This document shows positions 4,064-46,373 of a DNA stretch of 64,000 bases, piece after piece. The DNA is taken from contig NC_089444.1 of the NCBI RefSeq assembly GCF_026210795.1, positions 486,501 through 550,500 on the forward strand, given 5' to 3'. Position 1 is the first letter of the stretch, and each line of letters starts with the position of its first letter. The notes under the pieces were generated by a model that was given only the letters and a program-made list of their open reading frames with translations, was not told the DNA's origin and ran no database searches. The stretch comes from Rhizophagus irregularis. Lineage: Eukaryota > Glomeromycota > Glomeromycetes > Glomerales > Glomeraceae. A program made the position numbers and the translations under genes.

Positions 4064-5225
4064 ATGAAATTTATGTCAAGGAGAGTAGTCTTGTATTTTT
4101 TCTACCTCATTTGTGTCAACCACATTTCTTACCCGAGGGTAGAATCTACAGAAGTAAAATTAACAGAAAATAGTGATAACGAGCTCAGTAGTAATGTTAT
4201 GAAGGCTTTGATAATGCTGGAAATTGCCAGTTTGTCTCTCCGCAGCGCTTATATTAGAGCAGATTCATCTTTGTGGTCATTTGTCAATCTTCGTAGTTCT
4301 GTTACCAATGAAGCAAAGGTATACAGCATCCAGATTCTACCAATTGCAACCACGCTCATCCGACATCTCCAAGAGTTCAGTGAAACTTATGATGCCATAT
4401 CCTTTGATGAATTCAAGGAAGATGTTCATGTATTGGCTAAAAAAGCAGAAGAAAACTACAAACTTAGTAAATACGTATCAGAACTTCATAAAGCTGTTTA
4501 CGCTGAATTCAAGAAACTAGAGGATCAAGCAAACATCGTTTTAAATGATTTACAAATGGAAACCAGACGTTATGAGGCGGAACTACGTCGTAAAGCTATG
4601 GAAAAGGATGAATTGGCCCTTGTTTTAGCCTTTATTCCTATTGTTAACAGCTCCCCCAATTATCGCTAGTGAACAGAAAGCCATTATTGCACAAGAAATA
4701 GCCATTAATGAAGAGAAAAAACTTGCAGTTGCTGGAGCTAAGGCCATTAAGGTAACTTTAGTCGAGTCTATTAATGAATTTATTAATGCTATAGGTATTT
4801 TAGGTATTTTATTTCCGCTCGAATTTTTTGGTAGAAAAAGTTCAAATTTATCTCATTCATACTAACATGGGATTTTATATAGGTGTTGTTACTCAGTTCT
4901 TTGAAATTCTGCATCAAGAATTGCTAACATTTTCTAATAAATACGAAAAATTCAAAGAAGATCAAGCCAAAATTCATTTTATATTAATTAAAAAGAAGGC
5001 TGCAACTCTTGTTTCTGCTTGCCGTTTCTTTATGAACAGAATTCCAGAATTCATGGCAATTCCGGATAACCATGACTAAAATTACGTTCAGAAATGGCTT
5101 TCAAAAATGAAGGCCGAGATCAATGGAGAAAATTTATCATTTCTCGAATGGGGTAAAAAGTGGTTTAGATCAAACAAGGAGATTGCTAATCTGCTAGGAT
5201 TACCAAGTAATAATGATAGATAGAT
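4064..5225 (+). pseudogene. Secreted coiled-coil protein relic, possibly pore-forming-toxin-like
   Basis: The region starts with a hydrophobic secretion signal (residues about 5-25). A long, charged, alpha-helical region rich in Glu, Lys and Ala follows, then hydrophobic stretches and a second helical part. Signal, long helices and a central hydrophobic segment recall alpha-helical pore-forming proteins, but that likeness is only of layout. I see no diagnostic motif, and a plain secreted coiled-coil protein is equally possible. The coding signal does not run through in one frame; there appear to be about three breaks, unless some are introns. Treated here as a fossil. It lies immediately right of the hAT element. 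Confidence 0.4.
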
Positions 5226-7333
5226 TTTCGAAATTTGCAAAAGTATAACGCGGAATTAGATTTATTCAATGTATATTATTAGTCAAATATCAATCTCAGA
5301 TTACATTTGCGAAACTAGATGATACACTGTATACGGAATATTCAAAAAAAAAAAATCACGTGTTTTTGACGGCCGTCAGTGTCATGTGCGTTATGATGAT
5401 GATGACGTCAATCTTACCGTCAAATATTATCGTATCACAAATTACACAACAACTTTTTAAAATATGCGCAAATTTTTTTACGTTATTGGGGAAGCGCATC
5501 CTAACGTAAATACATCTATATAATTAATTGAATTATCCGCAGTTTGTTGCCGATAATCATGCAACCGCCGTAAGCATCGTCCAAATTTCCGTATGTTAAA
5601 AAATATTCATATAAAACTTGATAATTAGCTATTTTATTCATATAATGAGATAATACTGATTGGTAGATTATTGGGTAAATTTGAAAATCATTATTATTAA
5701 TATAAATATTTATTACTTTCGATTTGTAATTTTGACCTTTAACTTTTTATGATTTACGAAACCTGTAATATTTGGGTACTAACTACACTTGTTTTCCGTT
5801 CTCTATTAATCGTGTTGTTGTTTTGTCCTATTATTACTTATATTTCTCGTAATGTTCTAATAATTATTATCATGCATAAACTTTAAATTGATAATTTTAA
5901 TTCATTTATTTTTCTGTATTAAATTTATTATGAATGAATTTATTCTTTTTTTAAAAAAAATATTATATTAAATTATTAACATTTAAAATATGATCGAATT
6001 TTCATTCGATTATTAGAATCTTTTCAACATTTTTCTTTTGTTTTTTCGTTAAACATTTAATATTTTTTTATTTACATTGTTATTTTTTTATTTTTTTTTT
6101 AAATTAAAGATCTCACATAAGAAAATTCTTATTGAAATACAATTTTAGAAAGATTTCGGATACAATTGCATGACATGAACTTGATCAATTGCATAAATTT
6201 AATGCTTTAATTAATGTCACACTAAAAATGTTGTAATACCATATATATACTTCATTATTACATTATTATATTATTACTGAAAATACTGCAGTACGCAAAT
6301 GATTGATTGTTTTAATTTTAGATACTTTTTAAAAATAAACTTTATTTTTTTTTAAAAAAAAATTAAAAATAACCTTAACGTGATACTTTTTAATTTTTCT
6401 ATTAAGAAAAAAAAATGCGTTAAAAAAAATTGACATAGGATGATAATTATTCTACTAACATAAGTTTTATTAGTTTTTTCTTTTTAATAAAAAAAAAATA
6501 ATAAAAATAATAAAATAAATAAAATAAAATAAAAACAAAATAATATAAAAATAAAAAAAAAAATAATAATAAATAAAGTTAAAATAATAATAATAATAAT
6601 AATAAACGTTAAAATACATTTGGTTTTTTCATTATTTTACGAAAACGTCGATAATTTCTATTATTCGTCATACTTTTATCAACCATATATATTCTAATAT
6701 TGTTACACAAAATCTAATTTATCGTATAATTGTCCTTAATTTAATCTACATAATGAAAAAAATTTTTTCTCGTAATCAAATCCGGATGAACCGATATTGA
6801 ATGTAATATATATATATATTTATTATATGATCATAAATTCCCATTATTTAATAACAGTACTTTTCTTAAAATAAAAACTCGTATTGTTCTTATTTGCTGC
6901 GCCAAAGATTTTCTTAAAAACGGAGATGATCAGCAAATTAGATTAATTTAATTGCATACATTTGTTAATCGAATTAAGTTAACAATCAAAAAGAATAAAA
7001 TATAGTAATGTACAATAAAAGTAAATTCATTTTTATATTACACGTAACGAAAATATAATATATTAAAATTATGAAATTAATTTATATATAAAGAATTCCC
7101 AATTCGAATCTTCTTTTCAAAAAGTAAATCTTTATCGTTATTCCACCTTTATTTTTAATAAAAAAGTGGCGAAATAATTTATCAACTCTTTATTATCCAT
7201 TCATAATTTCTATAGGTTTTTAAACCTTTAGACCTTACCTTCTTTTAGATTAGAACCTTTCGTTTAATTACATGAAAAAACATTCATCATTCATTTTTTA
7301 TCATTATTTTGAATTATTTATTAATCAAACAAA
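5226..7333. other. AT-rich intergenic DNA
   Basis: No gene is supported. The stretch 6480-6605 is A-rich simple sequence ending in an (AAT)n microsatellite. An uninterrupted T-run followed by an A-run lies near 6345-6362. The last 150 bases before 7334 serve as the upstream region of the subtilisin gene; no firm TATA box could be chosen. Confidence 0.6.
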
Positions 7334-8614
7334 ATGATTATTCCACGCTTCATTAAAATCTTCTCTATTGCTGTGATAATTAGTTTCTTGGTTTCTTCAG
7401 TTGAATCAACAAAAAAAAATTTAAAATGTCCTGGACCTTTAGATAAAATTGATGATCACTTCAATGAAAAAGGTGAAAAATATATTATCACATTTAATAA
7501 ATCTGATAATGAAGCAATTGAAAATCATTTTGATACCATGCAAAATTGTTGGAAAAGACCCATAAAACATATAATTCCAAATAAGTTATTAAATGATAAA
7601 AATACTCTCATGGATTTTTCCGTTAAAGGTTATCTTCACGGATATTGTGGTTATTTTACAAAATCATTTATTGATAAACATCTTTCTAATATACCCGGTA
7701 TTAATATTGAAAAGGATGGTCTTTTTAAAATTAATCGTGTATTACCTCTTGATTTTACTAAACGTACTATAGCAAAGAATCCAACAAAGAATATTGATCG
7801 TATCGATCAATCTAGACGTCCATTAGATGGAAAATTCATTTATCCTGTTAGTGCCGGTGAAGGTACAAATATTTACATAATTGATACTGGTGTAAGAATT
7901 ACTCATAAAGAATTTGGAAATCGTGCAAGATTTGGTGCTTCTTTTTGTAAAGATTGTAATGATCAAGATGAAGATGGTCATGGAACTCAGGTTGCTAGTA
8001 TTGTTGCTGGAACTACTTTTGGTGTAGCAAGAAAAGCAAATATTATAGCTGTTAGAGTTTTTGACGTTACTGGTGATGCTTCAAAATCTGATATTATTAA
8101 TGCTATGTCCTTTGTACTTAATGAACATAATAAGAATCAAAATAAGAATACAATAATTAATATGTCACTTAATGGTGATTTTTCAAAATCTATGAATAAT
8201 ATTATAGAAAATCTTACCAATGCTGGTATTCATGTAGTAGTTGCTGCTGGTAATGATGATACAGATGCTTGTAAATCTTCTCCTTCTTCTGCTCCTACTG
8301 CTATCACTGTTGGTGCTACAGAAGAAGATAGTGATCAAGTTGTTGATTTTTCAAATTTTGGAAGATGTCTTGATATATTCGCTCCTGGTGTTAATATTAA
8401 AGGTGCTGGTAATCAATCTGATGATGATGTTTTAGAATTATCCGGTACTTCTCAAGCTTCTCCTCATGTTGCTGGTACAATAGCTCTTATAATTTCAGAA
8501 TTTGGTAATAGATCTCCTAATGAAATGTCTAATATACTTAATAGATTATCATCAAAGAATACTATTAAAGGTCTTAAAAATGGTTCCCCTGACTCTTTCT
8601 TACGTACTCCATAA
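7334..8614 (+). CDS. Secreted subtilisin-like serine protease (proteinase K-type, S8)
   Basis: A complete 426-residue endopeptidase in one exon. Residues 1-25 form a signal peptide, so it should be exported. Residues about 26-150 look like the inhibitor propeptide, and the mature enzyme begins near the NIDRIDQSRRPLDG segment. The catalytic triad is complete: Asp184 in IIDTGV, His216 in DGHGTQVAS and Ser373 in SGTSQASPHVAG; the oxyanion Asn307 sits in VVAAGND. The Ser motif has Gln where Met is commoner (GTSMASPH), a variant that some fungal enzymes share. Length and domain order fit secreted fungal proteinase K-like proteases used in nutrition or host interaction. The ATG at 7334 is the only start that preserves the signal peptide. 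No intron is needed, unlike most neighbouring genes. Confidence 0.95.
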   Translation: MIIPRFIKIFSIAVIISFLVSSVESTKKNLKCPGPLDKIDDHFNEKGEKYIITFNKSDNEAIENHFDTMQNCWKRPIKHIIPNKLLNDKNTLMDFSVKGYLHGYCGYFTKSFIDKHLSNIPGINIEKDGLFKINRVLPLDFTKRTIAKNPTKNIDRIDQSRRPLDGKFIYPVSAGEGTNIYIIDTGVRITHKEFGNRARFGASFCKDCNDQDEDGHGTQVASIVAGTTFGVARKANIIAVRVFDVTGDASKSDIINAMSFVLNEHNKNQNKNTIINMSLNGDFSKSMNNIIENLTNAGIHVVVAAGNDDTDACKSSPSSAPTAITVGATEEDSDQVVDFSNFGRCLDIFAPGVNIKGAGNQSDDDVLELSGTSQASPHVAGTIALIISEFGNRSPNEMSNILNRLSSKNTIKGLKNGSPDSFLRTP

Positions 8615-12494: not shown

Positions 12495-15400
12495 CTATAA
12501 CTTGGTAATTGCGCAGTCTAAGCATTCAGAATGATCATCATTCTTATCGCATTTTGGAAGGTCCTTTGTAAAAGGGTTTAATAATCGAGATATATTAATA
12601 GCTTGTGGATGTGTTGATGATCGGTTAATTCCGATAGATAAAATATTTTCTTTCCTGTATTCTTCTGCTTCTTTAAATTGCTCTTTAATTTCACCATTTA
12701 AACTAAAGTTATATGAATGAACAATACTTTCTATTTCAATAGCATTTGGTCTATTGTTTGGATCCAAATCCCAACACCTTTTCATTAATTCAACATAACA
12801 TTTTGGTGCTTCTAATTCTTTGATTTTAGGACTAATTCCATCACATATATCCAACGCCAAAAATTCATCATGCGCACGATCAGAAAAAGGTTGTCTTCCA
12901 GTTGCTACAAAATACATGATCATACCAAAGCTATATATATCTGCTGCTTTAGTGTAGGGTTTTCCTCTTAATACTTCTGGAGCTACATAAGACATAACCC
13001 CGTAAATTTTGGATTTATCTACATTGCCAATTTCTCCACATAATCCCATATCTGAAATATATGTATCATTATATTGATTAACATAACCAAATTCAAATAA
13101 TATATTTCCTGTGTGAAAATCACGATGAACCATCTCTTTTTGATGAATTTCATTTAAACCAAAAATAATATTATATAATGTTCGTAATTTATTGTTCCAA
13201 TCAAAATCTTTATAACATTTATTTATCCAATCATTAAAATTTCCACCTTCTGCATATTGAAGAACTATTATATAATTTTTTGTTTTTGGATCTCGAGATA
13301 TTCCATATATTTTAATAATATTACTACCACACTTATTCATCGAATATGCCCTAATCTGTTAAGTATAATAGTTTGTTAATATATTAAAGAATGTATATTA
13401 ATTAGTAATTATAATTGTTATAAATTTTCATGAATCACACACCTCATTTATAAATTCATTAATCTTATTTCGTGATTTATATAAATACTTTAAAGCAACT
13501 TTTTTACATGGTCTTCTCTTCCATTCATTATCATAATGCAATGGACCATTTTTCCATTTTGCTAAATACACTATAGCAAATCCACCTTTACCTATTATTT
13601 TAATAATCTTAAATTGATTATATGGTATCCATTCAAATACCATATCATTTGGATTATTAACTTTTAGTTGCATCTCTTTAATAAATTCATCAATTTTTTC
13701 ATTTCCACTCCAGTTTGTAAAATTTTTTCTTAAATAGTCTATCTGACATGGTTTACACCATCTAAAAATTGTATCTGTATATTCTTCAATACATGTCTCA
13801 CAATAACTTTTAACATATCTTTTATGATAATTCTCAAGAACCATAACATAATCTTTTGAATCTGGATTTTGGGTTATTCCATATATTTTGAAAATATTAT
13901 TGTATATCTTCGCCTAAAAATTTAATTACATCAAGAAATAATATTTATATTAGATTTGTAGAAATTGGAAATTTCGTATAATCAATCATACCTTATCCAG
14001 AAAATCATTATTCATATATTGTGAGTTATATAGTTTCAAAATAACTTCTTTAGCTTGCACTTTTACCCATTTCTTTTTGTTCGAATCAAATTTTAATGGG
14101 CCATCTTTCCATAATGCTGAATATACAGTTTCATCTATTTCTTTAATATCATTAAATTGATCGTATGATATCCATTCAAATATTGTATCTTCTGGGTTAT
14201 TGATTTTTAATTGCATTTCTTGAATAAAATTATCAATTTTTTCATTCCCACTGGTCCAATAAGTGAATACTTTTTTCAAACGATCCATTTGGCATGGTTT
14301 ACACCATTTATACTTGATATCTGTATACTTTTCAATACATTTTTCACAATAGTTTTCATCATATTTCTTTTGAAGAACCATAATATAATCTTTTGTAATA
14401 GGTTCTTGAGATATTCCATACAATTTAAAAATTTCATCATATACTTTAACCTATTATGAAATATTAACAAATTAACACTATAAGATAGTATTGAAATTAA
14501 ACTAAAACTCCTCATACCTTGTTCAAAAATTCATCAACCACATTTTGTGAGTTGCATACATACTTCAAAGTAATCTCCTTAGCCTGTTCTTTCGCCCATT
14601 TCTTTTTATTTAAATCATATATTAATGGACCATCTTCCCATAACGCTGAATAAACTTTATTTCCTATATTTTTTATATCATTAAATTGATTGTAAGGTAT
14701 CCATTCAAATACTATATCTTTTGAGTTATTGATTTTTAATTGCATATCTTTAATAAAATTATCAATTTCCTCATTTTCACTGGTCATATTTGCGAATATT
14801 TTTTCCAAATAATTTATTTGGCATGGTTTACACCATTTATATTCTATCTCTGTGTACTTTTCTCCACATTCTTCACAATATCCATTTTGAAGAACTAAAA
14901 AAAAATCTTTTGTGTCAGAATTTTGAGATATTCCATATGCTTTAAGTAACTTCTTGTTTTCTTTAAATGACAGTGTATACTGTTTAACCTAAAAAATTGT
15001 TGTTTACTAAGAAAATATTTAAAAATTAAAAATTATTTATAAAGAAATTTCGTACCTCGTTATTTAGAAATTCATTGGTAATATTTTGAGAGTTACGTAA
15101 AAGTTTTAAATTAACCGTCCTATCCAATCTATCAGTATCTCTCTTATATATGTTTTTATTCCAACACAACGGTCCATTTGTCCATTCTGCTGAATATATT
15201 AAACTATTACTATTTATTTCTTTAAAATGACTAAACCGAAAGTATGGTATCCGTTCAAAAATTATATTATCTTTATCATTAATTTCTAATTGCTTTTCTT
15301 GAATGAATTTATTAACTTCATTATTTTCACTGGGATTCTTAAAATTTTCCTTTAAATGCTTTATTTGACATGGTTTACACCACCTAAAAATCATATCCGT

Positions 15401-16965
15401 ATATTCTTCACCACATTCTTCACAATACTTTATATCTTGAATAACCAATATATAATGACCTGTGTCGGGATTTTGAGAAAACCCATATATCTTAGACTCT
15501 TCATTAAGTGAATTTAAGTAATGCTTTATCTATTAAAATAAAAAAATATTATTACATTAAGAAAAGCATTTTAAAAAAAATCAAATTTGTAGAGAAATTT
15601 CATACCCTATTTTTTTGAACTTCATGTGAATCGTACAAATATTTTAAAGAAACTATTCTATCCGAATTTCTCGTATATTTCATTTCACTTAAATTATAAT
15701 ATAATGGTCCATTCTTCCATGTTCCTATTGGATAATTAATTCCGATATTTTTAACGTTACTTAGTTGATTATATGGTATCCATTCAAATATTGTATTTTC
15801 TGAGCTATCGATTTTTAATTGCATTTCTTGAATTAATTCATCAATTGTTTCATTACCACTAGCCCAATTTCTAAAATTTTCCTTTAGATTTTTTATTAGA
15901 CATAGTCTACACCATTTATGTTCTGTATACTTTTCAAGACATTTGTTACAATATTCATCATGCATTGCATTATATTCTCCAAGAACTATTAAATAGTCTT
16001 TTGTATCTGGATTTTGAGATATTCCATAGATCATATAACTTTCATATACTTTAACCTATTTTATTCGAAATGATAGAAAACTAAGTGACGAGGCTTTGAT
16101 TTCTAAAAAAAATATAAATATGCTTAAACTTTCATACCTTATTAAGAAAGTCATCAATTGTATTTTGTGAGTTATATTGTTTCAAAGTAACCTTTCTATC
16201 TTGTATTCTTGTCCATTCTTTTTCATTCATATCATATTCCAATGGACCATTATTCCATAATGCTGCATATAATGTATTGCCTATTTCTTCAATATTACTA
16301 AATTGATCATATGATATCCATTCAAATACTATATCATATGGACTATTTATTTTTAATTGCATTTCTTGAATAAATTCATCAATTTTTTCATTTCCACTAG
16401 TCCAATTTTTAAAATTTTCCTTTAAATTTTTTATTTGGCATGGTTTGCACCATTTAAAGTATGTAATTTTATATTTTTCCCCACAATGTTTACAATATCC
16501 ATCTTCAATAACTAAAATATAATCTTTCGTATCAGGATTTTGAGATATTCCATATATTTTTAGACCATAGTCTTTATAACTAATTAAGTATTGTCTAACC
16601 TATTTAAATAATTAAATTATTATCAGTTATATTATAGTATTAAAAAAAAAGCATATATGTATATTTTTTAAAACTAAAATAACATAAAATTTTCGTACCT
16701 CATAGGGAGTGATATCTTGTGAGTTATATAAATATTTTAAATTAACAACTTTCGTACTTGTGTTTCCCCGAAGACGATGTGGGACATTCTTCCATGTTGT
16801 TACTGCAATATCATCACTATTATTAATTTTTTCAATATTACTAAACTGATCATATGGTATCCGTTCAAATGATGCATCGGCTTTTAATCGAATTTCAATA
16901 ATAAGCTCTTCAATTTTTTCGTTTCTACCAGTCAAATTTATAAAATTCTCTTCTGAATTTTCCAT
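12495..16965 (-). CDS. TKL-like protein kinase with seven tandem N-lobe modules
   Basis: Eight exons: 16699-16965, 16138-16599, 15606-16055, 15056-15529, 14518-14988, 13992-14450, 13443-13913, 12495-13355. All introns (67-99 bases) are GT-AG and all joints are phase 0, giving 1304 residues. Each middle exon repeats one module: hinge-like YGISQNPDTKDY, then a C-x2-C...WCKPC pair that could bind zinc, then FEWIPYNQF, a glycine-loop region, GPL and an ALKYL-like lysine strand. Only exon 7 keeps a full glycine loop (IGKGGFAIVY). Exon 8 completes one kinase, with HRDFHTGN, SDMGLC in the DFG place, YVAPEVL and DIYSFGM, so the terminal domain may be active. The first exon lacks the Cys pair and starts at ATG 16965. 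The earlier lobes look non-catalytic. Alternative: a decaying array, but seven intact splice junctions argue against that. Confidence 0.8.
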
Positions 16966-22156: not shown

Positions 22157-25142
22157 TTATAATAAATCCTTTTTATTGATTAATTTATTTAATTGATTTT
22201 GAGCTTTTTGATATCCTTGTTCAGCAGATTTTGTATACCAATAAATTGCTTGATTTATGTCCTTTTTAATTCCATCTTCATATTCATACATAATAGCAAG
22301 ATTATATTGAGCTACACGATTTCCTAAATTTGCAGCCTTTTTATATAGTTCAAATGCCTTTTGTTTATCAATATTGGTTCCAATTCCATGATAATAACAA
22401 GTTCCCAAATTAATTATTCCACGTATATTTTCTAAATTTGCAGCTTTTTGATATAATTCAAATGCTTTTCGTTTATCAATATTGGTCCCTATTCCATATT
22501 CATAACAAGTTCCTAAATTAGTTATTCCACGTGCATTTTCTAAATTTGCAGCTTTTTGATATAATTCAAATGCTTTTTGTTTATCAATATTGGTCCCTAT
22601 TCCAATCTCATAACAATATCCTAAATTAGTTATTCCAAGTGCATTTTCTAAATTTGCAGATTTTTGATATAATTCAAATGCTTTTTGTTTATCAATATTG
22701 GTCCCTATTCCATCTTCATAACAATATCCTAAATTAGCTATTCCTTGTGCATTTTCTAAATTTGCAGCTTTTTGACATAATTCAAATGCTTTTTGTTTAT
22801 CAATGTTGGTCCCTATTCCACTTATATAACAATATCCTAAATTAGCTATTCCTTGTGCATTTTCTAAATTTGCAGCTTTTTGACATAATTCAAATGCTTT
22901 TTGTTTATCAATGTTGGTCCCTATTCCACTTATATAACAATATCCTAAATTAGCTATTCCAAGTGCATTTTCTAAATTTGCAGCTTTTTGATATAATTCA
23001 AATGCTTTTTGTTTATCAATGTTGGTCCCTATTCCATTTTCATAACAAACTCCTAAATTAGCTATTCCAAGTGCATTTTCTAAATTTGCAGCTTTTTGAT
23101 ATAATTCAAATGCTTTTTGTTCATCAATATTGGTCCCTATTCCATTTTTATAACAATATCCTAAATTAATTATTCCACGTGCATTTTCTAAATTTGCAGC
23201 TTTTTGATATAATTCAAATGCTTTTTGTTTATCAATGTTGGTCCCTATTCCATTTTCATAACAATATCCTAAATTAGTTATTCCACGTGTATTTTCTAAA
23301 TTTGCAGCTTTTTGAAATAATTCAAATGCTTTTTGTTTATCAATGTTGGTCCCTATTCCATTTTCATAACAATATCCTAAATTAGTTATTCCACGTGTAT
23401 TTTCTAAATTTGCAGCTTTTTGATATAATTCAAATGCTTTTTGTTTATCAATATTGGTCCCTATTCCATTTTCATAACAATATCCTAAACTAACTATTCC
23501 AGGTGCATTTTCTGAATTTGCTGCTATTTGATATAATTTAAATGCTTTTTGTTCATCAACATTAATTTCAATTCCAAGATGATTAAATATTCCAAGTAAA
23601 AAAACAGAATTTGAATTATTCTGATTATTCAATAACCAATTATAAATTTCTTGTGAAGTTATATTATAATTATTAAGATAATTAACAATTTCATGTTTTC
23701 TCCTTTCCATATCTGTATTTTCAAAAAGAAGAACTATTTCATTAACCATAATATCAAAATTATTCTCTGATGATATTGTAGTATCTATTTCTTCTGTATT
23801 CATATTATTAAAATTTTGAATAAGTTGAGACATGTCTCCGTGCAGTGAATTATTAATAATATTTCTAGGAGCTTCAACAATATTCTGCTGTTCACTTGAT
23901 AATTGGTTACTTTCTTTTAAAATAATGGCATTTAATTTTGCAACAACTTGGTTTATAGTTAGACGATTATCTGGTTCATTATTCCAGCAATCTAAGTATA
24001 AAATAGAACTTGTAATTAATAAATGCAATTATTATTGAACATAATTAAAATTTATTTTTATTTACCAGTATATATTTTTATATAATCATCGGGTGTATTG
24101 GGAATAGGTTTCTCTCTAAGACCATGTAATATTTCCATAGCCAAACCAACATCATATGGTTCATTACAAAAAGGTGGCCGCCCACTAGATATTTCCCACA
24201 AGAGTATGCCAATACTGTAAACATCACTCTTTTTATTCAACGAATATAATTGTATTTGGTTGTTGCTATCTCTTTTTCTATTAAATATTTGTGGATCAAC
24301 ATAAGTAACCATTCCAAATAATTTTGATTGAATATTAGATGATTCTTCAATCCTTTTTGATAATCCAAAATCAGCTAATTTAACGGTATCCTTGTGAACT
24401 AATACGTTATTGGAGTGCTATTATTAATTAAAATGATAACAACAATATTAGGTACATAATTTTACAAACTCTATAATTTAATAAAATATCAAAAGTAAAT
24501 AACCTACCAAATCACGATGCACAATCCCTTCATCATGCAAGAATAATATAGCATTAGCTAACTGAAATGCTAGATTTAATTTGTCATTCCAAGTAAGATT
24601 TTTAAAACATCCATTTAAATAGTTTCGAAGGGTACCATTATTGGCATATTCCATCACTAAAAAATATTTTTTTGAATTGTTGCTCCGGTTTTCTTTTGAA
24701 AAAAAATAAAAATTTTAGATTTTTTCATTTTATTAAAATAATGATTAAAATATTTATAATACCTGTTGTAATGCCATAAAAGCGAATTATATTTTCATGA
24801 AAATCAATTTCACGCTGAAGTTTAAGCTAAACCAAATTAATAAATTAGGAACATAATTTACGTCAACATATCATAAAGACAATATATAATAATTACTTCG
24901 TTAACAATTTCTTTAGCCATGACATTGAAATTAAAAAAAGATTTCAATGCTAAATAATTACTATGAGAACTTTTCCAATTTGCACGATAAACTTTTCCAA
25001 ACCCACCAAAACCAACTTCTTGTATATTATTAAAATGATTATAGTCATAATATTTAATTTGTTTTTTCGCAATAGATTCTTCGATCCAATTAATCCACTC
25101 ATTTGAATTGTCGATCATATTAAGTTCAGTGGTATTAGACAT
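22157..25142 (-). CDS. Protein kinase fused to thirteen Sel1 repeats
   Basis: Five exons: 24897-25142, 24763-24826, 24508-24692, 24066-24417, 22157-23991, with GT-AG introns and compatible phases, giving 893 residues. The N-terminal half is a TKL-like kinase: glycine loop VGFGGFGKVY (about residues 43-52), Lys67, HRD 162-164 followed by LHSNN, DFG 181-183, TYVDPQ in place of APE, and DVYSIGILLWEISSG. After a linker, residues about 415-883 hold thirteen 36-residue Sel1 units of the form LGYCYENGIGTNIDKQKAFE. Sel1 solenoids bind proteins, so this is likely a signalling kinase with its own scaffold, a pairing much expanded in Glomeromycotina. A large open frame begins at 24028 inside the last intron; it is not the real start, because the kinase reads on upstream. 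The catalytic residues look intact. Confidence 0.9.
22196..23599 (-). repeat. 108-bp coding tandem array (Sel1 units)
   Basis: Thirteen in-frame copies of a 108-base unit. The central copies are almost identical at base level, and the two neighbours spanning about 22741-22956 are identical, showing very recent duplication or gene conversion. The outermost units are clearly diverged. Confidence 0.9.
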
Positions 25143-27143: not shown

Positions 27144-28679
27144 TTAATCAACTTTCTTTAATAAATTATAAATATCACCAGCAAAAGATAATTCATGCCA
27201 ACTTCGAACTCTAACATTATATAGTTTAAATTCCTCCACTTCATCTTTCAAATCATACAAATCTATTTGATCTCTAAAATAGTACCTAATAGACAAATAC
27301 TTGACTCTTTTTTTCTCCATAATATATTCCTTTATATCATGTAAAATATCGTAACTACCTCTTTGCTTAATTAACAATTTATTAATAAGAATATCTTGAG
27401 AATTTTCTAAGAATGTTCTAAAATCATTTTCTTTAATAGAAAGAGTCAAACTTAAGTATTCTAATTTAGAAGGTAGAACTTGTCCTAAATTTTGCAATAT
27501 ATTTGAACCATATCCAATATTACCATTTGAAGAATAATAAGTATCATCCGATATACGAATTGTAAGATGATTAAGTTTTTGTTTAATATTTTCAATTAAA
27601 TTGATTATTGGATAAATAATCGGATTATCAATTCTATACAAATCAAGGAATTTGATATTCTTACAATATTTTGTAATTAATTCTAATAACTGTTGTTTTA
27701 ATAATAGACTAAAATCAAATTCAAATCCAAACCCAAAATTTTCTAAATAACCACCACATTTTTGTAATAATAATCGTAATGATTCGATTTGTAATATCTC
27801 GTTTATAAATAAAGATCTTAATTTAAATGGTTTAGTTAAAGTAATAATTTGTTGAATAAAACTATTATTTAAAGAAGAACAATAAACAATATGAACAAAT
27901 TCTAAAACATTAAATTGTTCAAATACTTTATCTTTATTTATTATTACTTTAAGATCGACGTAATAGAAAATGATTGTATTTAAAGTATTTGAAAAATTAT
28001 AATCTTTTGATAATAATAATGATTGATATAAAGGTAAATCATAACCAAGTAAAATTTTTTTTAGATTTTGATGTGATTTAATTATTTGTGATACCCGATT
28101 TTGGATTGTAACATCATAAAATATACTATAAAATTTTAAATTTCTAATATTATAAATGAAATTTGGATTTTGTAAAATTAACTCAAGAATATCATGATCA
28201 AGATATCTAGAATCTTTAATAATACGTGGAATCTCTATTTCAAATGTATGTAAATTTACTTCATTTTCAATAAATATTTTAATTAGTAATAAACATATTT
28301 CAATTATTGAACTTTTTAAAAGTTTATTTTTGAAGGTTGACATTTTCCATTTCTTAACAAAAGTAATAAATTTATATGTATTCAAATATTTTAAAAAATT
28401 AAGATAATTGAATAAAGTATTTGAAGGTAATAAATTATTAATAATTTTATATTCATTTAATTCTGTTTTAGAATTATGTAAGTAAATATCAATAATAAAA
28501 TTACAGTTTCTTGTAGAAATAGAAAATGGATTTTCCCATAATAATGGAATCGTTAAACGACACCATAATCTATTAACTAAAATACATGAATGTAAAGTTG
28601 AATGATCATTTTGTAAATATTTTATAACTTCATAAGTTAATTCGGGTAAATCTCCCGAAAATAATTTTGAACATGACAT
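27144..28679 (-). CDS. F-box protein, paralogue 1
   Basis: A single exon of 511 residues. Residues about 9-55 form an F-box-like helix bundle (DLPELTYEVIKYL, CILVNRLWCRLTIP, LLWENPFSI). F-box proteins usually link substrates to the Skp1-Cul1 ubiquitin ligase. The rest is Leu/Ile/Asn-rich with irregular LRR-like strands (LKFLDLYRI, LEYLSLTLSI). The C-terminus has the family's EEFKLYNVRVRS segment. The start MSCSKLF is shared with three paralogues at 38-46 kb, which supports the ATG at 28679. This is the most diverged copy and lies about 10 kb from the others. The frame is intact. Confidence 0.85.
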   Translation of the reverse strand: MSCSKLFSGDLPELTYEVIKYLQNDHSTLHSCILVNRLWCRLTIPLLWENPFSISTRNCNFIIDIYLHNSKTELNEYKIINNLLPSNTLFNYLNFLKYLNTYKFITFVKKWKMSTFKNKLLKSSIIEICLLLIKIFIENEVNLHTFEIEIPRIIKDSRYLDHDILELILQNPNFIYNIRNLKFYSIFYDVTIQNRVSQIIKSHQNLKKILLGYDLPLYQSLLLSKDYNFSNTLNTIIFYYVDLKVIINKDKVFEQFNVLEFVHIVYCSSLNNSFIQQIITLTKPFKLRSLFINEILQIESLRLLLQKCGGYLENFGFGFEFDFSLLLKQQLLELITKYCKNIKFLDLYRIDNPIIYPIINLIENIKQKLNHLTIRISDDTYYSSNGNIGYGSNILQNLGQVLPSKLEYLSLTLSIKENDFRTFLENSQDILINKLLIKQRGSYDILHDIKEYIMEKKRVKYLSIRYYFRDQIDLYDLKDEVEEFKLYNVRVRSWHELSFAGDIYNLLKKVD

Positions 28680-28760
28680 ATTGTAAGTTAAAAAAGAGAA
28701 AGAGAGAAAAAAGGGAGGTATTTGCGTATCACATTTTACTATTGTGTCTATTTATATTAA

Positions 28761-30051: not shown

Positions 30052-32268
30052 TCAAAATTCTAACTCGTTTGAAATGTAATCTATAAAATAGAAATTTAAT
30101 TTATCTATCAAAGATGACTTTTATTAAAATAGCATAGTAAATACCTTTTGATGAAGAATTGATAGATGAACATTTAGAAAATATAGATGAGCATTTAGAA
30201 ATGTAAGAACTTAATAATTTACTTGTATAAATAGCATTTGGATGAGACTTTTCACTAAACTCAGGACCAAGCTTTTTTGAATCTATCAACTTTTTCCTTT
30301 TTAAGTCAGCTTGATCAACTTGATCAACTTGACCATCATATTCTCGTTTGTCCCATTTTTTACAAATATCTTTAATGATATCTATAGAAGGTCTTTTTTT
30401 GGGATCAGGGTCCCAACAACTTTTCATTAAATTAGCATACCATTCTATTGTATCTTCTGTAATTTCAGGTCGTGCACCATCAATAATTTTGATAATTAGA
30501 TCAATACCATGTTCAACATTAGCAAAAGGCTTACAACCTGTTGTAAGTTCCCACATAATCATACCCAGACTATAAATATCAGATTCTTTAGAAAATGCTG
30601 ACCCCATAAATATTTCTGGTGCAATATAAGGTATCACTCCATAAATTTCATTATCCAATAAGGTATCATTTGCAGATTGTGATAATCCTAGATCTCCGAT
30701 TTTACAATCATAGCCAGTTATCAACATATTTCCACTGTGTAAATCTCGATGTATGAGATTTGTATCATGAATACTCAGAAGTCTAAAATAGTAATAATTA
30801 ATAAATTTGTATTATAAATTAATCATTTACCAATATGCCTAAAATTTAAATACCCAATTGTAAGATTATATAGAATAAAAATTTTTTCTCTCCAATCAAT
30901 TATTGTAAAGTTCATTTGTAGATAATTATGTAAATCTCCAATTGGAGCATATTCCATAACTAATATATAACTATCTAATCCATCCACTCGAGGGTCTTTT
31001 GTAAAACCAAAAGTTTCAATCAACATAGGATTTCCGCTATCTGTTCTATCTGTTGTAAAACTGTAATAATTCGATTTTAACTATAAATATTAAGATTAAA
31101 ATTTAAAATTTTTATAAAATAAATACCAATCTTTTAATCTTTAAAATATTTACCTCTCTCAAAAATATTTTTTAGCATATTGAGAATTTTTAAATCTTTT
31201 TAAAATGAAAATATTTTTATGTCCATTTTTAGTCCAAAAATAATATTCCATACCATCTAACAAAGTTGCTTGATATACGATACTAAATCCTCCTTCTGCT
31301 ATTTTTTTTACATTCATAAATTGAGAATATGGTATATATTTCATGAATTTTCTTGGTTTTTTGTAAAAGCGGCTTAAATTACAACATATTTCGTATGGAA
31401 CGAAATATTTATCAACATTTTTTATAACGTCAGTAAATTTATCTATTTCTAATTGATAAGATCTTATACTAACAAGGAAATCATCTAAAATACTTTTCCC
31501 ACTGTTAATACTAATAATCTTTTTGCTATCTAGTATAATGGTTGATACTCTCTTGCATTTTTTGCAAAGTGATTGATTTGTAATTCCAAAAATAATATTT
31601 GTTGTTAAACAATATCTACATCCAATAAAAAATATGAAACAATTCTCACAATACTTTTGACAATTTGAGGTAAATACTAGAATTTTACAACAATAACAAA
31701 TAATTGTAGCGTCCCACCATGGTAAATATATAATTGAAATAGGCTTTTTAGTTAAAGTTGATTCTATACATCCAGAAGAAATTAGATAACAATCTGAACA
31801 CCATTTATATTCCTTCATATGGTAAGCTGTTCCTTTATATAATAATTTTCCACATAGTTTACAATATTTTTCACTTTCAATCATTTTAGTATTAAAATCT
31901 AAAGAATAATAAGAATTAAAGTACATTATTTGTTTAAAAAATAATATTTTCAAACAATTTCTACAGCATTCTTGAATATTTCGGTGTACTTTTGTTCTGC
32001 TTATTTCATGTTCATTACATTTCAAATCCTCTGTGAAAAAATATACGTCCAAGTATATGTCATTATCAGTTATATTGGTTAAATAACGCGATAAACAATT
32101 TTTACAATACTTTTGTTTCTCAATATTCGTTTGTGTGTATTCTTCTCCACAATGAATACAATTATCATCTCTCCAATCAAATGAAACAAAAAAAATTGGT
32201 ACGGGGCTAGATTTTAATTTTGGTGTTGGATCAAAAGAATTTTTTTCATTTAATTTTACTAGTTCCAT
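30052..32268 (-). CDS. Cys-rich TKL-like protein kinase, apparently frameshifted
   Basis: Exons 31154-32268, 30854-31080, 30145-30782 and 30052-30080. The first encodes an unusual N-terminus with at least six Cys pairs (CIHCGEEY, YCKNC, CCRNC, YCKLCGK, CYCCK, YCENC), probably zinc-binding, then the N-lobe with AEGGFSIVYQA and an ILKRF lysine. Later exons give ETFGFTKDP, VMEYAPIGDLHNYL, LIHRDLHSGN, GDLGLS in the DFG place, YIAPEIF and DIYSLGMIMWELTTG. The first exon reads into a stop at 31160-31162 and reaches its donor one base out of phase. The last exon stops in ISNELEF, whereas a one-base-shorter T run would continue as EFDIDIK into a further plausible exon near 29955. Both faults sit in T runs: assembly error or early pseudogene. 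Confidence 0.7.
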
Positions 32269-34102
32269 TTTATAATATTACGATATAAGCAAGTATAGAA
32301 AATTCAATAAATTTATAGTTTTTCAAATTTTTATATAATGAACCTCTGAATAGAATATAGAATTTTCTTTTTCTGTCGACGAATTCGTCTTAGTATTACG
32401 GAAAATTCGATTGAAGTGTAAAAATGCATTAATTGTATTATGCATGTTTACCTCTATTTGGTTTTTTTTTGTACTTTATTAATTCAAAATACACAGGTAC
32501 AAAGAACGCCCTGGTGACTAGTGCATTCCACATAATGAATAGAATAAAAACCTATCTAATGCAGACACCAAACAACATGATAAACGGAAAAACAAACACA
32601 AAAAAAAAAGAAAAAGAAATTCGATTATGCAGGAAAAGCACGATCAGCATAAGAAAACTCCAAAACCCTGTACCCCTTGTTTCGGTTGATCCCCTTGTTT
32701 CGGCAAAAAAGGTATAAACTATAAAGCTTTTATTTTAATAATTTCATTATTCGTTATTATATTTATATATTCATTTTTTTTTTATCTCATCAATAAATCA
32801 TATTTATATAAAAATTGAGAAAAAGAAAATTAAAAATAAATTAAATGTAATAAAAATAGAATCTATTTATTAATTACTGAAATCTTCAAATTTTTTTGGA
32901 ACTTCAATGTTTTTTTTTTTTTTTTGTTATGAACTTACGTCAGTGAACATTTTTTTTAAAAAAATATTTTTAATTAGTCAAACTTAAATTCAAGTGGTTT
33001 AATTTTTAGTAGTCGTTCTGCTGACACCAATTATAGGAGGTAATACAAGGTTTTTGTTGAACCCAATTTAAAGCAACCTATTTATATATTTTTTAATATA
33101 ATATTACCGTAATAAATTTCTTTATTCTAAAAAAAAAAAATAGAATGACTTACCGGTTTTCCACAGTCGATGTATCTATCTGGATGTTTCGAACTTGAAT
33201 CCAGGAATAAAAGTGAGAAAAACTTTATTTTTTTCGGTTTTAAAGGTTTTAAAAAAAAAATTTTTTTGACAAAAAAAAAATTAAATTAAAAAGTTATTAA
33301 ATTTTCGAAAAATAAATAAATAAATGGGCTTAAAAAAATATTTCGGTTTAAAAACTGAACAGATCAGTCCAGTCATAAAATTATTTTAGCATTCAGCATT
33401 TCAACGTCTATAATAATACAATTATGTCAAAATAACGATCGTAATGCTAAATTCGTAATTTATTTACGATGAAATCCTAAAATAGATTTAGTCAATTAAA
33501 AAAATTGCAGTAAATAATATAATTTTTGCCGAACCAGCCCATTAGTCAACAGGGATCTGCTAAGCAAACCATATTTAAACACCTCGATTCGTAAAAAAAA
33601 CCTAACAATCAGATACGGACTTCGATACTGACATACTTCACCGATCTTTTTTGAGAGCAAAAAAAATTAATATTATTTTTATTATTCCAACCTATATAAA
33701 CCAAAAAAAGATATAAATTCTCTTTTTTTAAAAAAAAAATAGTAATCCAAAATGGAAATAATCGTTACGATATCCTATACATAAATAAATAAAATAATAG
33801 CTAAAAAAAAATGATAGATCATGTGTTATACGATCAAATTTTTATCAAAAAAAAAAAAATTATATCATAAAAAATAAAAAATAGAATTTTTTTTTTTAAA
33901 AAAAAAGCACCAAAATCTCTTATTATAATTATTTAGAAAGTAAATGATTTTTTTTCTTATAACGTTGTATATATAATAATCAAATTTTTATTTTGTTTAA
34001 AAAAATGTTTATTGTTTAAAGTTTTCTTGCTATATAAATTTAATTTAATTAAAAAAGATAATATAATTTTTACATTGATAATTAGCTGATAATCATTCAT
34101 AT
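32269..34102. other. AT-rich intergenic DNA
   Basis: T-run/A-run palindromes occur near 32948, 33723 and 33890. A 94-codon plus-strand frame (32433-32717) has no protein-like composition. A short direct repeat CCCTTGTTTCGG lies at 32675-32703. No gene is supported. Confidence 0.5.
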
Positions 34103-38397: not shown

Positions 38398-39996
38398 TCA
38401 TTCAATTTCCTTTACAAAATTAAATACGTTAATCACTGAACTATAGTAACTTTGCACTTTAATATTATACAACTCAAATTCCCTCACTTCATCTTCTAAT
38501 GAAATTAATTCCTTACCATAAAGATTAAAATTATAAAATGAAGTCTCAAAGGAAGGCTCACTAATAGCCAAATACCTAACCCTTTTCTTTTTCATAATAT
38601 ATTCTTTTATGGAGGGTAAAATATCTTGACTTTCCTTGTAATGAATTACTAATTTCTTAATAAAAGTATCTTGAGAATTTTCTAGAAATATTTCAAAATC
38701 GCTCACTTTAATGTGGTGAAGACTCAGATATAAATATTCTAATTCAGATGGAAGGGTTTGCCCTAAATTTTGTAATATGATTGAGCTACATTCAGCATTA
38801 CCATATGATGATGAATAATAATCATCCCAGATTAAACCACATGTACTAATTGAAAGATAATTAAGGTTTCGTTTAATATTTCCAATTAAATTGAGTATTG
38901 AATAAACAATCTGATCATCATTTCCACACATATCAAGAAATTTGATATTCTTACAATATTTTGTAATTAATTCTAATAATAAATGTTTCTTTTCTAATGA
39001 TACAAATTCAAATCCGTACCCAAAATTTTCCAAATATTCACCCGATTTTTGTAACAACATTTGTAATGACTCAATTTGTGACATCTCATTTATAAAAAAA
39101 GATCTTAATTTAAATGGTTTAGGTAAGGTAATAATTTGTTGAATAAATTCAGCATTTAAAGAAGAACAATAAACGATATGAACAGATTCTAAAACATATA
39201 ATTGTTCAAATATGTTTCTTAAATTGATTAAATCTTTAAAATTGACACGATATAATATGATAGTGTTTAAAGAATTTGAACAATTATAATCTTCTGATAA
39301 TAATAATGATTGATATATAGGTAAATTATTATAACCTAAGAAAACTTTTTTTAGATTTTGATGTGAGTTGATTATTTGTGATATACGATCTTTAATTAGA
39401 CTAATATTAATATTATATACAACATAAAGCTTTAAATTCCTAATATTGCGAACAAAATCAGGATTTTGTATAATTAATTCAAGTATATTATTAAGATGTG
39501 TAGATTCTTCAATAACATGTGAGACCTCAATTTCAAGAGTATGTAAATTTACTTCATTTTCAATAAATATTTTAAATAATGATACACAAATATCAATCAA
39601 TCCTATAATATCTAATTCATTGGGGTTTGAAATTCCTATAACAGTACAAAACCATTTCTTAATAGAAGTAATAAATTTACATGTATTCAAATATTTTAAA
39701 TAACTAAGATAATTGAACAGTGTATTTGAAGGTAATAAATTATTAATAATTCTATATTCTTTTAATTTTGTTCTAAACTTATATGAATTATGTGAGTAAA
39801 TTTCAATAAAATTATAATTATAATTTTCAGTAGGAATAGAAAATGGATTTTCCCATAATAATGGTATCGTTAAACGACACCATAATCTGTTAACTAAAAT
39901 GCATGAATATAAGGTTGAATAATCATTCTGAAAATATTTTATAATTTCATAAATTAATTCGGGAAAATCTCCTGAAAATATTTTTGAGCAAGACAT
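38398..39996 (-). CDS. F-box protein, paralogue 2
   Basis: A single exon of 532 residues starting MSCSKIFSGDFPELIYEI. The F-box-like region covers about residues 9-55 and includes CILVNRLWCRLTIP and LLWENPFSI. The central region keeps family blocks such as LHTLEIEV, NLKKVFLGY, LRSFFINEMSQIESL, YLENFGYGFEF and NIKFLDM, which read like irregular leucine-rich repeats for substrate binding. The C-terminus is full length (EFELYNIKVQSYYSS). It is closest to paralogue 3 in the ILQNLGQTLPSELEYL region. The frame is intact and no intron is needed. Confidence 0.87.
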   Translation of the reverse strand: MSCSKIFSGDFPELIYEIIKYFQNDYSTLYSCILVNRLWCRLTIPLLWENPFSIPTENYNYNFIEIYSHNSYKFRTKLKEYRIINNLLPSNTLFNYLSYLKYLNTCKFITSIKKWFCTVIGISNPNELDIIGLIDICVSLFKIFIENEVNLHTLEIEVSHVIEESTHLNNILELIIQNPDFVRNIRNLKLYVVYNINISLIKDRISQIINSHQNLKKVFLGYNNLPIYQSLLLSEDYNCSNSLNTIILYRVNFKDLINLRNIFEQLYVLESVHIVYCSSLNAEFIQQIITLPKPFKLRSFFINEMSQIESLQMLLQKSGEYLENFGYGFEFVSLEKKHLLLELITKYCKNIKFLDMCGNDDQIVYSILNLIGNIKRNLNYLSISTCGLIWDDYYSSSYGNAECSSIILQNLGQTLPSELEYLYLSLHHIKVSDFEIFLENSQDTFIKKLVIHYKESQDILPSIKEYIMKKKRVRYLAISEPSFETSFYNFNLYGKELISLEDEVREFELYNIKVQSYYSSVINVFNFVKEIE

Positions 39997-40068
39997 TGCG
40001 AGCGAAGAGAGAAAAAGAGAGGTATTTGTGTAACAAAATTTTTACTATTGTGTCAATTTATATATAAT

Positions 40069-42036: not shown

Positions 42037-43524
42037 TCACCAATATATAGCTAAATATTTAACCCTTTCCTTTTTCATAATATATTCTTTTACAGTGGGT
42101 AAAATATCTTGACTTTCCCTATGATAAATTAATAATTTCTTAATAAAAGTATCTTGAGAATTTTTTAGAAATATTTCAAAATCACTTGTTTTAATGTGAT
42201 GAAGACTCAAATGTAAATACTCTAATTTAGAAGGAAGAGTTTGTCCTAAATTTTGTAATATGATTGAACTACATTCAGTATCACCATATGATGAATAAAA
42301 ATAATCCTCCCAGGTTAAAGGATTATTATTACATGTACTGATAGAAAGATAACTAAGATTTTGTTTAACATTTTCAATTAAATTGATTATTGGATAAATA
42401 ATCAGATTATCAATTCCATACAAATCAAGGAATTTGATATTCTTACAATATTTTGTAATTAATTCTAATAATTGTTGTTTTTTTAATGATAGATTATAAT
42501 CAAGATCAAATCTGTACCCAAAATTTTCTAAATAATCACCAGATTTTTGTAATAATAATTGTATTGATGATTCAATTTGTAATATCTCATTTATAAATAA
42601 AGATTTTAATTTAAATGGTTTAGTTAAAGTAATAATTTGTTGAATAAAATCACTTAAAGAAGAACAATGAACGACGTGAACGGATTCTAAAACATTTAAT
42701 TGTTCAAATATCTTTTTAAAATTATTCATATTATTAAAATCGACGGAACATAATATGATATTATTTAAAGAATTTGAACAATTGCAATCTTTTGATAATA
42801 ATAATGGACGATAGAAAAGTAAATTTCCATTACCTAATAAAATTGTTTTTAGATTTTGATGTAAATTAATTATTTGAATTATACGATCTTCAATTAGAAT
42901 GTTTTTAATATTATTAGATATAGCATAAAATTTTAAATTTCTAATATTATGGATAAAATTTGGATTTTGTAAAATTAACCCGAGAATATTATAAAAACAT
43001 GTATGAAAATAAGGATCTGTAACCTTAATTTCAAGAGTATGTAAATTTACTTCATTTTCAATAAATAATTTGAATAATGACATAATAATCAATTCTTTAA
43101 AATCCGTTACTGAATGAAAATTTAGACCTTTTAAAAAATATCTATTTTCGGGTTTTGATGTCCGGATAAAACCTTCAACCCACCCATCAACAGAATCAAA
43201 AATATCATATGTATTCAAATATTTTAAAAATTTAGGATAATTGAACAGTGTATTCAAAGGTAATGGATTATCATTGATTTTATATTCATTTAACTTATCA
43301 TCATTTAAATTATGTAAATAAATTTCAATAAAATTAAAATTATAATTTCCATTAGGATTTGAAATTGAAATTGGATTTTCCCATAATAATGGAATCGCTA
43401 AAAGACACCATAATCTGTTAACTAAAACGCATGAATATAAAGTTGAATAATCATTCTGTAAATATTTTATAACTTCACAAGTTAATTCAGGAAAGTCTCC
43501 AGGAAATATTTTTGAACAAGACAT
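42037..43524 (-). CDS. F-box protein, paralogue 3, C-terminus cut by a frameshift
   Basis: A single exon of 495 residues. The F-box-like region covers about residues 9-55 (DFPELTCEVIKYL, CVLVNRLWCLLAIP, LLWENPISI), followed by the family's LRR-like blocks (LHTLEIKV, LKSLFINEILQIESS, NIKFLDLYGID). It ends YLAIYW, about 50 residues short of its paralogues. In the shifted frame the missing family tail is still readable downstream to a stop at 41883-41885 (IGEPFFDAS, EVKEFELYNIKVQSF). One extra base in the ATATAT stretch near 42043 explains the truncation, which is recent because the tail has no other damage. The shortened protein may still work, since the F-box is complete. Confidence 0.83.
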   Translation of the reverse strand: MSCSKIFPGDFPELTCEVIKYLQNDYSTLYSCVLVNRLWCLLAIPLLWENPISISNPNGNYNFNFIEIYLHNLNDDKLNEYKINDNPLPLNTLFNYPKFLKYLNTYDIFDSVDGWVEGFIRTSKPENRYFLKGLNFHSVTDFKELIIMSLFKLFIENEVNLHTLEIKVTDPYFHTCFYNILGLILQNPNFIHNIRNLKFYAISNNIKNILIEDRIIQIINLHQNLKTILLGNGNLLFYRPLLLSKDCNCSNSLNNIILCSVDFNNMNNFKKIFEQLNVLESVHVVHCSSLSDFIQQIITLTKPFKLKSLFINEILQIESSIQLLLQKSGDYLENFGYRFDLDYNLSLKKQQLLELITKYCKNIKFLDLYGIDNLIIYPIINLIENVKQNLSYLSISTCNNNPLTWEDYFYSSYGDTECSSIILQNLGQTLPSKLEYLHLSLHHIKTSDFEIFLKNSQDTFIKKLLIYHRESQDILPTVKEYIMKKERVKYLAIYW

Positions 43525-43596
43525 GTTGTAAGCGAAAAGAGAAAAAGAGAGGTATCAAATTCTTATTATTATGCAAAACTGGGTAAATTATATTAA

Positions 43597-46311: not shown

Positions 46312-46373
46312 ATTGAAAGAGAAAAATGGAGGTACAGTAAGTATTATTATGCAAAACTGGGTAAATTATATCA

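Follow-up and report, generated by a model that had tools for sequence, protein, structure and literature searches.

The stretch analysed here (the window) comprises 64,000 nucleotides of Rhizophagus irregularis contig 16 (assembly GCF_026210795.1, NC_089444.1, positions 486,501 to 550,500). On its minus strand, from window position 16965 to 12495 (C16:498995-503465), lies a kinase gene of eight exons with a predicted spliced product of 1,304 amino acids. Its seven introns are all GT-AG, 67-99 nt long and, as an earlier prediction made from the DNA letters had stated, spliceable in phase 0. The product carries seven N-terminal kinase lobes (N-lobes) in a chain, of which only lobe 7 adjoins a C-terminal lobe (C-lobe) and only lobe 7 has a glycine loop. 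This serial arrangement was the central claim of the original prediction and is confirmed on the predicted spliced product.

16699..16965, minus strand: exon 1, start codon, linker helix and degenerate N-lobe 1 (strands 1-3 and helix C)
16138..16599, minus strand: exon 2, strands 4-5 of lobe 1, CxxC...CxxC, linker and N-lobe 2 (short loop IGNTLYAA, lysine present)
15606..16055, minus strand: exon 3, strands 4-5 of lobe 2, CxxC...CxxC, linker and N-lobe 3 (loop lost, IGINYPIGTW)
15056..15529, minus strand: exon 4, strands 4-5 of lobe 3, CxxC...CxxC, linker and N-lobe 4 (loop lost, INSNSLIYSA)
14518..14988, minus strand: exon 5, strands 4-5 of lobe 4, CxxC...CxxC, linker and N-lobe 5 (short loop IGNKVYSA)
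13992..14450, minus strand: exon 6, strands 4-5 of lobe 5, CxxC...CxxC, linker and N-lobe 6 (short loop IDETVYSA)
13443..13913, minus strand: exon 7, strands 4-5 of lobe 6, CxxC...CxxC, linker and N-lobe 7 (IGKGGFAIVY, VALK)
About 13592-13569, minus strand: glycine loop GKGGFAIV of lobe 7, in exon 7
12495..13355, minus strand: exon 8, strands 4-5 of lobe 7 and the complete C-lobe (HRDFHTGN, DMG, VAPEV, DIYSFG)
12497-12495, minus strand: stop codon TAG of exon 8

The modules are 38-63% identical among themselves. Exon 1 is without zinc ribbon and without glycine loop, whereas the predicted C-x2-C...C-x2-C pair is found in all six of exons 2-7, and a four-cysteine zinc-ribbon-like element precedes five of the six pseudo-N-lobes. 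The shortened loops had been quoted correctly for exons 2, 5 and 6, and the loop is lost in exons 1, 3 and 4, while lobe 7 reads IGKGGFAIVYLAKW...VALK. Among the motifs said to persist, the lysine strand is kept in 7/7 modules but GPL in only 6/7, with NVPH in its place in exon 1. Intron 7 (87 nt) has the donor GTGTG and a CAG acceptor that sets the start of exon 8 at 13355.

The prediction of one module per exon holds for the number of lobes but not for their borders. Each intron lies directly after the helix C glutamate position (between NEFINE and IRAYS), that is between helix C and strand 4, and the introns thus bisect the lobes, so that the borders of exons and lobes do not coincide. The middle exons begin with strands 4-5 of the previous lobe (e.g. 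KIYGISQNPDTKDYILVI) and end with strands 1-3 and helix C of the next. Separate tandem genes are unlikely, because no C-lobe is present in the upstream exons and their reading frames continue across introns of phase 0.

Inside exon 7 there is also a 177-nt in-frame GT...AG stretch (13464..13640, minus strand) over strands 1-3 of the sole competent N-lobe, which the annotation of the near-identical protein P0001 leaves out. The stretch may be an optional intron whose removal would yield a kinase-dead product, or its absence from P0001 may be an artefact of annotation.

Exons 7 and 8 have the features of a TKL-like kinase: two lobes, glycine loop, VAIK lysine, helix C glutamate, HRD, D[FM]G and APE. 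When exons 2, 5, 7 and 8 were scanned singly against Pfam, exon 8 matched PF00069 (E 6.8e-32, profile 57-257 of 263) and exon 7 matched PF07714 below the cut-off (E 0.011). Exon 2 gave nothing at E up to 1 and exon 5 no kinase match, which means that Pfam-based kinase surveys can miss such lobes. The zinc ribbon is putative in a profile check of P0001, where PF08772 scores 24.5 bits, under the cut-off of 24.9.

The structure of the modules is predicted to be an N-lobe fold, as had been proposed. The AlphaFold model of upstream lobes, with mainly module 1 tested, resembles N-lobes of kinases and pseudokinases, including the JH2 N-lobes of JAK, and the five-stranded sheet with helix C appears in the modelled upstream modules. 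In the models of the proteins P0107 and P0048, strands 1-3 are followed by what is mostly a helix, by strands 4-5 and then by a cysteine-rich stretch. Structural matches to P0048 run from residues 14-35 to 118-133 and span the intron site, which comparison with window exon 1 places at about residue 86.

Glycine loop and ATP pocket in terminal and upstream lobes

Pocket residues were counted in 1,387 modules that span positions 45 to 98 of the hidden Markov model (HMM), from 202 proteins of the first two database searches. The HMMs derive from the modules of the window and from the matches to these, and a lobe was called terminal by the sole criterion that it adjoins a C-lobe. The second glycine of the loop is present in 99% of 154 terminal lobes vs 8% of 1,233 upstream lobes. 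Corresponding frequencies are 87 and 46% for the first loop glycine, 88 and 38% for the loop valine, and 95 and 36% for the alanine of VALK. The classes differ less at the lysine (99 and 85%) and the helix C glutamate (93 and 52%), and hardly at the tryptophan of EWI (99 and 98%); both retain most core positions. The two classes are told apart best by positions that we take to be G50, G52, V57 and A70 in PKA numbering, and these presumably line the site for adenosine triphosphate (ATP).

All four pocket residues occur together in 119/154 terminal and 22/1,233 upstream lobes. Part of these 22 are misassigned terminal lobes; at least three (in P0034, P0039 and P0080) come last among the modules of the protein concerned. 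A rougher count of glycine loops by regular expression gave 146/155 terminal and 78/1,203 upstream lobes (49 more were unparsed), and at the fetched loci all 15 lobes directly before a detected C-lobe exon carry the loop. Loss of catalytic or nucleotide-binding motifs within a kinase fold, the mark of a pseudokinase, is seen in the window as a lost or shortened loop in six of seven lobes. The upstream lobes are thus predicted to be ATP-incompetent, and one lobe (lobe 7) competent by its motifs.

In a module tree built with the loop columns removed, the nearest row of 12/15 terminal lobes was a terminal lobe or a last lobe with a glycine loop, and in 3/15 it was an upstream lobe. The same tree requires at least seven changes between the terminal and upstream states. 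The terminal lineage therefore appears to be separate from the upstream lobes mostly, but not wholly.

Selection, family size and turnover of the arrays

The upstream lobes are under purifying selection. The analyses of modules (selection, regions and tree) used at most 155 of 161 module hits, after removal of two window hits outside the gene and of hits with 60 bits or less or short coverage, including the glycine-loop lobe of L020 (59 bits). Pairwise maximum likelihood (ML) estimates of the ratio of nonsynonymous to synonymous substitution rates (dN/dS) for window modules 1-6, each against its nearest paralogous module on contig 16, were 0.47, 0.36, 0.17, 0.12, 0.10 and 0.31. Twice the log-likelihood difference (2dlnL) against dN/dS = 1 was 1.9, 4.2, 15.4, 16.7, 27.3 and 7.6. 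Selection on modules 1-6, which the original prediction had assumed, is thus purifying and not near neutrality, but module 1 alone is not significantly below 1. Module 7 gave 0.10-0.15 against four paralogs and the C-lobe in exon 8 gave 0.08-0.16 against three. IQ-TREE with MG+F3X4, on sets from which rows with more than 25% gaps were also removed, gave 0.349 for 34 upstream modules of contig 16 (2dlnL 138 vs 1), 0.374 for 45 random other upstream modules (2dlnL 198), 0.289 for terminal lobes (2dlnL 18) and 0.351 for C-lobes (2dlnL 15).

The difference between the lobe classes is concentrated in the glycine loop, the least constrained region in upstream lobes and the most constrained in terminal lobes. 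Its dN/dS is 0.62 upstream (2dlnL 26.7, below 1) vs 0.11 in terminal lobes (57 and 8 pairs). Strand 2 is also looser upstream (0.33 and 0.14), but strand 1 (0.22 and 0.24), strand 3 (0.32 and 0.28), helix C (0.33 and 0.27), the loop between strands 2 and 3 (0.47 and 0.50) and the linker (0.30 and 0.43) are not clearly so; these regional values are approximate, with a single divergence per pair and just eight terminal pairs. The comparisons show that the predicted N-lobe fold is constrained and that the strongest release is at the ATP loop. The arrays are a natural experiment in which the constraint of N-lobe folding is separated from that of ATP binding: selection retains the lobe but has in large part let go of its glycine loop.

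The original prediction had treated the gene as a single odd case, yet its architecture is found family-wide. Judged by sequence, the serial N-lobe kinases are a large lineage-specific fungal family of which the contig-16 gene is one member. The counts are lower bounds, because they cover the best 120 proteins per search (of 456, 634 and 1,653) and at most 150 scored candidates in searches of the own genome. All 120 proteins listed from the full-length search, which found 456, bear the names R. irregularis, R. clarus or Glomus cerebriforme, and R. diaphanus proteins appear in later match lists. Among 316 fetched proteins the number of modules (at least 60 HMM positions each) ranges from 0 to 16, with exactly one in 14 proteins. 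The DNA motif EWI[PS]Y[ND][QK]F occurs 1,155 times genome-wide and its reversed control not at all. Module number per gene in the family varies from 1 to about 25, with two giant arrays on contig 2:

C2:763000-782800 (L029, L030): about 25 modules, with a GGF lobe and a C-lobe at the end
C2:1364500-1384300 (L031, L032): about 21 modules, likewise with a GGF lobe and a C-lobe at the end

Both have a period of about 460 bp and loops that are alike, such as GKNGLITVYSAIW, and no CxxC pairs were seen in the stretches inspected. Some modules of the array of about 25 lie in short frames and are possibly broken. At locus L009 a 1,016-residue open frame (4214-7264, minus strand) runs in frame from repeats that we take to be Sel1-like into a zinc-ribbon/pseudo-N-lobe module.

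The contig-16 array probably predates the split between R. irregularis and R. clarus, because the R. clarus protein P0048 holds seven modules in the same order as the window. Their identities are 58, 72, 75, 68, 68, 73 and 84%, with a slightly higher off-position identity (75%) for module 6. In R. irregularis, P0001 has the seven modules in window order with 93-99% identity. A pseudogene or chance frames are ruled out by this conservation per module, by the R. clarus relative, by dN/dS and by the probability of a single open frame of 150 codons, which is 1.3e-7 at the composition of the region (0.10 stops expected per codon).

Recent duplication of modules is common in other arrays, with near-identical modules within L011, L018, L020 and L022. 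When P0002 (11 modules) is compared with L012 (12 modules), the ends correspond one-to-one (79 and 88-97%) and the middle differs: modules 1 and 7-11 of P0002 pair with modules 1 and 8-12 of L012 at 79-97%. P0002 is nearer to L010 than to L012 for module 1 (89%) and module 10 (96 vs 92%), and the orthology is therefore not clean. Module copy number varies between paralogs, and variation between isolates is just possible in this other array.

Other genes in the window include a second kinase gene (31159-32277 and 30101-30811, minus strand) with several CxxC pairs, an N-lobe with an AEGGF loop and a C-lobe with HRDLHSGN. A 623-residue frame at 22157-24028 (minus strand) has tandem repeats, presumably Sel1-like, and a 108-bp DNA repeat at 93%. 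Four paralogous frames of 505-557 residues (27144-28751, 38398-40041, 42037-43554 and 44692-46365, minus strand) start with MSCSK[LI]F.GD.PE and look by eye, we assume, like F-box/LRR proteins. An open frame at 7325-8614 (plus strand) with GHGTQVASI and GTSQASPHV would by these motifs be a subtilisin-like protease.

Possible functions of the N-lobe array

The gene would encode a single long TKL-type kinase in which six pseudo-N-lobes stand in tandem ahead of one competent N-lobe and C-lobe. About half of our confidence lies in the reading that the array consists of folded, ATP-incompetent N-lobes for binding, controlling or positioning this one competent kinase. The array might offer a protein-binding surface, as a scaffold, a decoy or ligand-sensing repeats, and might position or regulate the sole C-terminal kinase. 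Since the repeats are all phase-0 exons, unequal crossing-over, and possibly exon skipping, can alter their number and leave the frame intact. The array may go back to a zinc-ribbon/N-lobe/C-lobe kinase of which one copy, truncated at the hinge, became fused to the front of a complete one; the symmetric exon from that fusion may then have been amplified. A more specific version is possible, but we consider it less likely than not: the N-lobe would have turned into the tandem-repeat recognition domain of lineage-specific receptor-like kinases in arbuscular mycorrhizal fungi, where differing and fast-changing strings of ATP-incompetent lobes bind ligands or rival kinases and signal via one terminal catalytic lobe. 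The logic is comparable to that of repeat-based innate recognition proteins.

Several observations weigh against a folded binding array. Purifying selection means that foldable modules are kept and says nothing on binding. Joint pairwise ML dN/dS is higher for upstream lobes (0.35, 57 pairs) than for terminal lobes (0.25, 8 pairs) and C-lobes (0.20, 6 pairs). Crude NG86 values on pairs with few synonymous differences are 0.715, 0.64 and 0.64, respectively, although this method is biased upwards on such pairs and ignores the AT-rich codon usage, and codon ML is preferred. The model of the pseudo-lobe has a predicted template modelling score (pTM) of 0.47 and just three Foldseek matches at E <= 0.001. 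Many arrays lack zinc ribbons (the last cysteine is present in 56% of upstream and 60% of terminal lobes), and 33/143 module junctions are without an acceptable intron. P0256, P0263, P0275 and P0282 are annotated as scarcely more than a C-lobe, while L009, L016 and L025 end in a glycine-loop lobe after which the motif scan detected no C-lobe frame. The annotation of P0048 ends inside module 7, without a C-lobe, and that of P0001 is without 59 residues of lobe 7 (strands 1-3).

The array could instead act within the molecule, with the neighbouring lobe or the whole array packed on the C-terminal kinase and controlling it, much as JH2 does for JH1 in JAK, and copy number tuning the threshold. 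In Foldseek, the three-lobe model of P0107 has JAK tandem chains in the two highest ranks, and the conserved ends and variable middle in the single comparison of P0002 and L012 would fit such a role. However, the JAK matches have a root-mean-square deviation of 20-31 Å over the whole chain, so that the arrangement of lobes is not reproduced, the pTM of the P0107 model is 0.62, and the single-module relatives argue that control by an array is not obligatory. We regard this explanation as somewhat unlikely.

It is also unlikely that the modules are by-products with little function of their own, duplicated as phase-0 exons by unequal crossing-over and kept mainly since misfolded or out-of-frame copies would spoil the kinase. 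The common recent duplications and the range of copy numbers are what such a process would leave, but seven positionally matching modules have been kept in R. irregularis and R. clarus despite easy deletion, and dN/dS outside the loop is 0.22-0.47. Exon skipping as a source of isoforms with varying number or combination of lobes, including chimeric lobes because an intron bisects each lobe, is quite improbable. Any subset of exons would stay in frame, given seven phase-0 junctions here and 110/143 in a scan without phase preference that included the window (112/143 when phase 0 was preferred), and the near-identical P0001 is annotated without the in-frame GT...AG stretch of exon 7; symmetric exons are, however, also expected from duplication alone.

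Comparison with known kinases

Rhizophagus has an expanded kinase repertoire with 2,533 members (Manley et al. 2023, PMC10234402), described for the same species and gene class as the kinase in the window, and high-copy kinase genes are found near Mutator-like elements (MULEs; PMC8647823). The available portions of these repertoire papers contain no description of serial N-lobes or of a glycine loop restricted to the terminal lobe, and half a kinase fold as a serial repeat was not found in the accessible parts of the open-licence literature on Rhizophagus or mycorrhizal kinases and tandem kinases. The kinase expansion of arbuscular mycorrhizal fungi hereby gains a testable architecture.

The solved sequences closest to the catalytic part of P0107 are the TKL kinases RIPK, Roco4, CTR1, MLK and RAF, with RIPK4 at E 1.8e-23. 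To our knowledge none of these has an N-lobe array. In the JAK family, too, a single chain has a catalytically degenerate, kinase-like region (JH2) on the N-terminal side of an active kinase (JH1). In JAK this region is one complete two-lobed pseudokinase. In contrast, no complete pseudokinase precedes the kinase here; the N-lobes alone are repeated, up to about 25 times in the family, and no C-lobe lies between the modules of the window.

The units of plant tandem kinase proteins are whole kinase domains, usually two, and decoy roles have been proposed for them. According to the parts of the reports available, Yr15 (PMC6170490) and Pm57 (PMC11153570) are likewise fusions of kinase and pseudokinase. 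The window gene has no second complete domain of a kinase or pseudokinase; unlike in the plant proteins, the units are many, and each is an N-lobe, often with a putative zinc ribbon.
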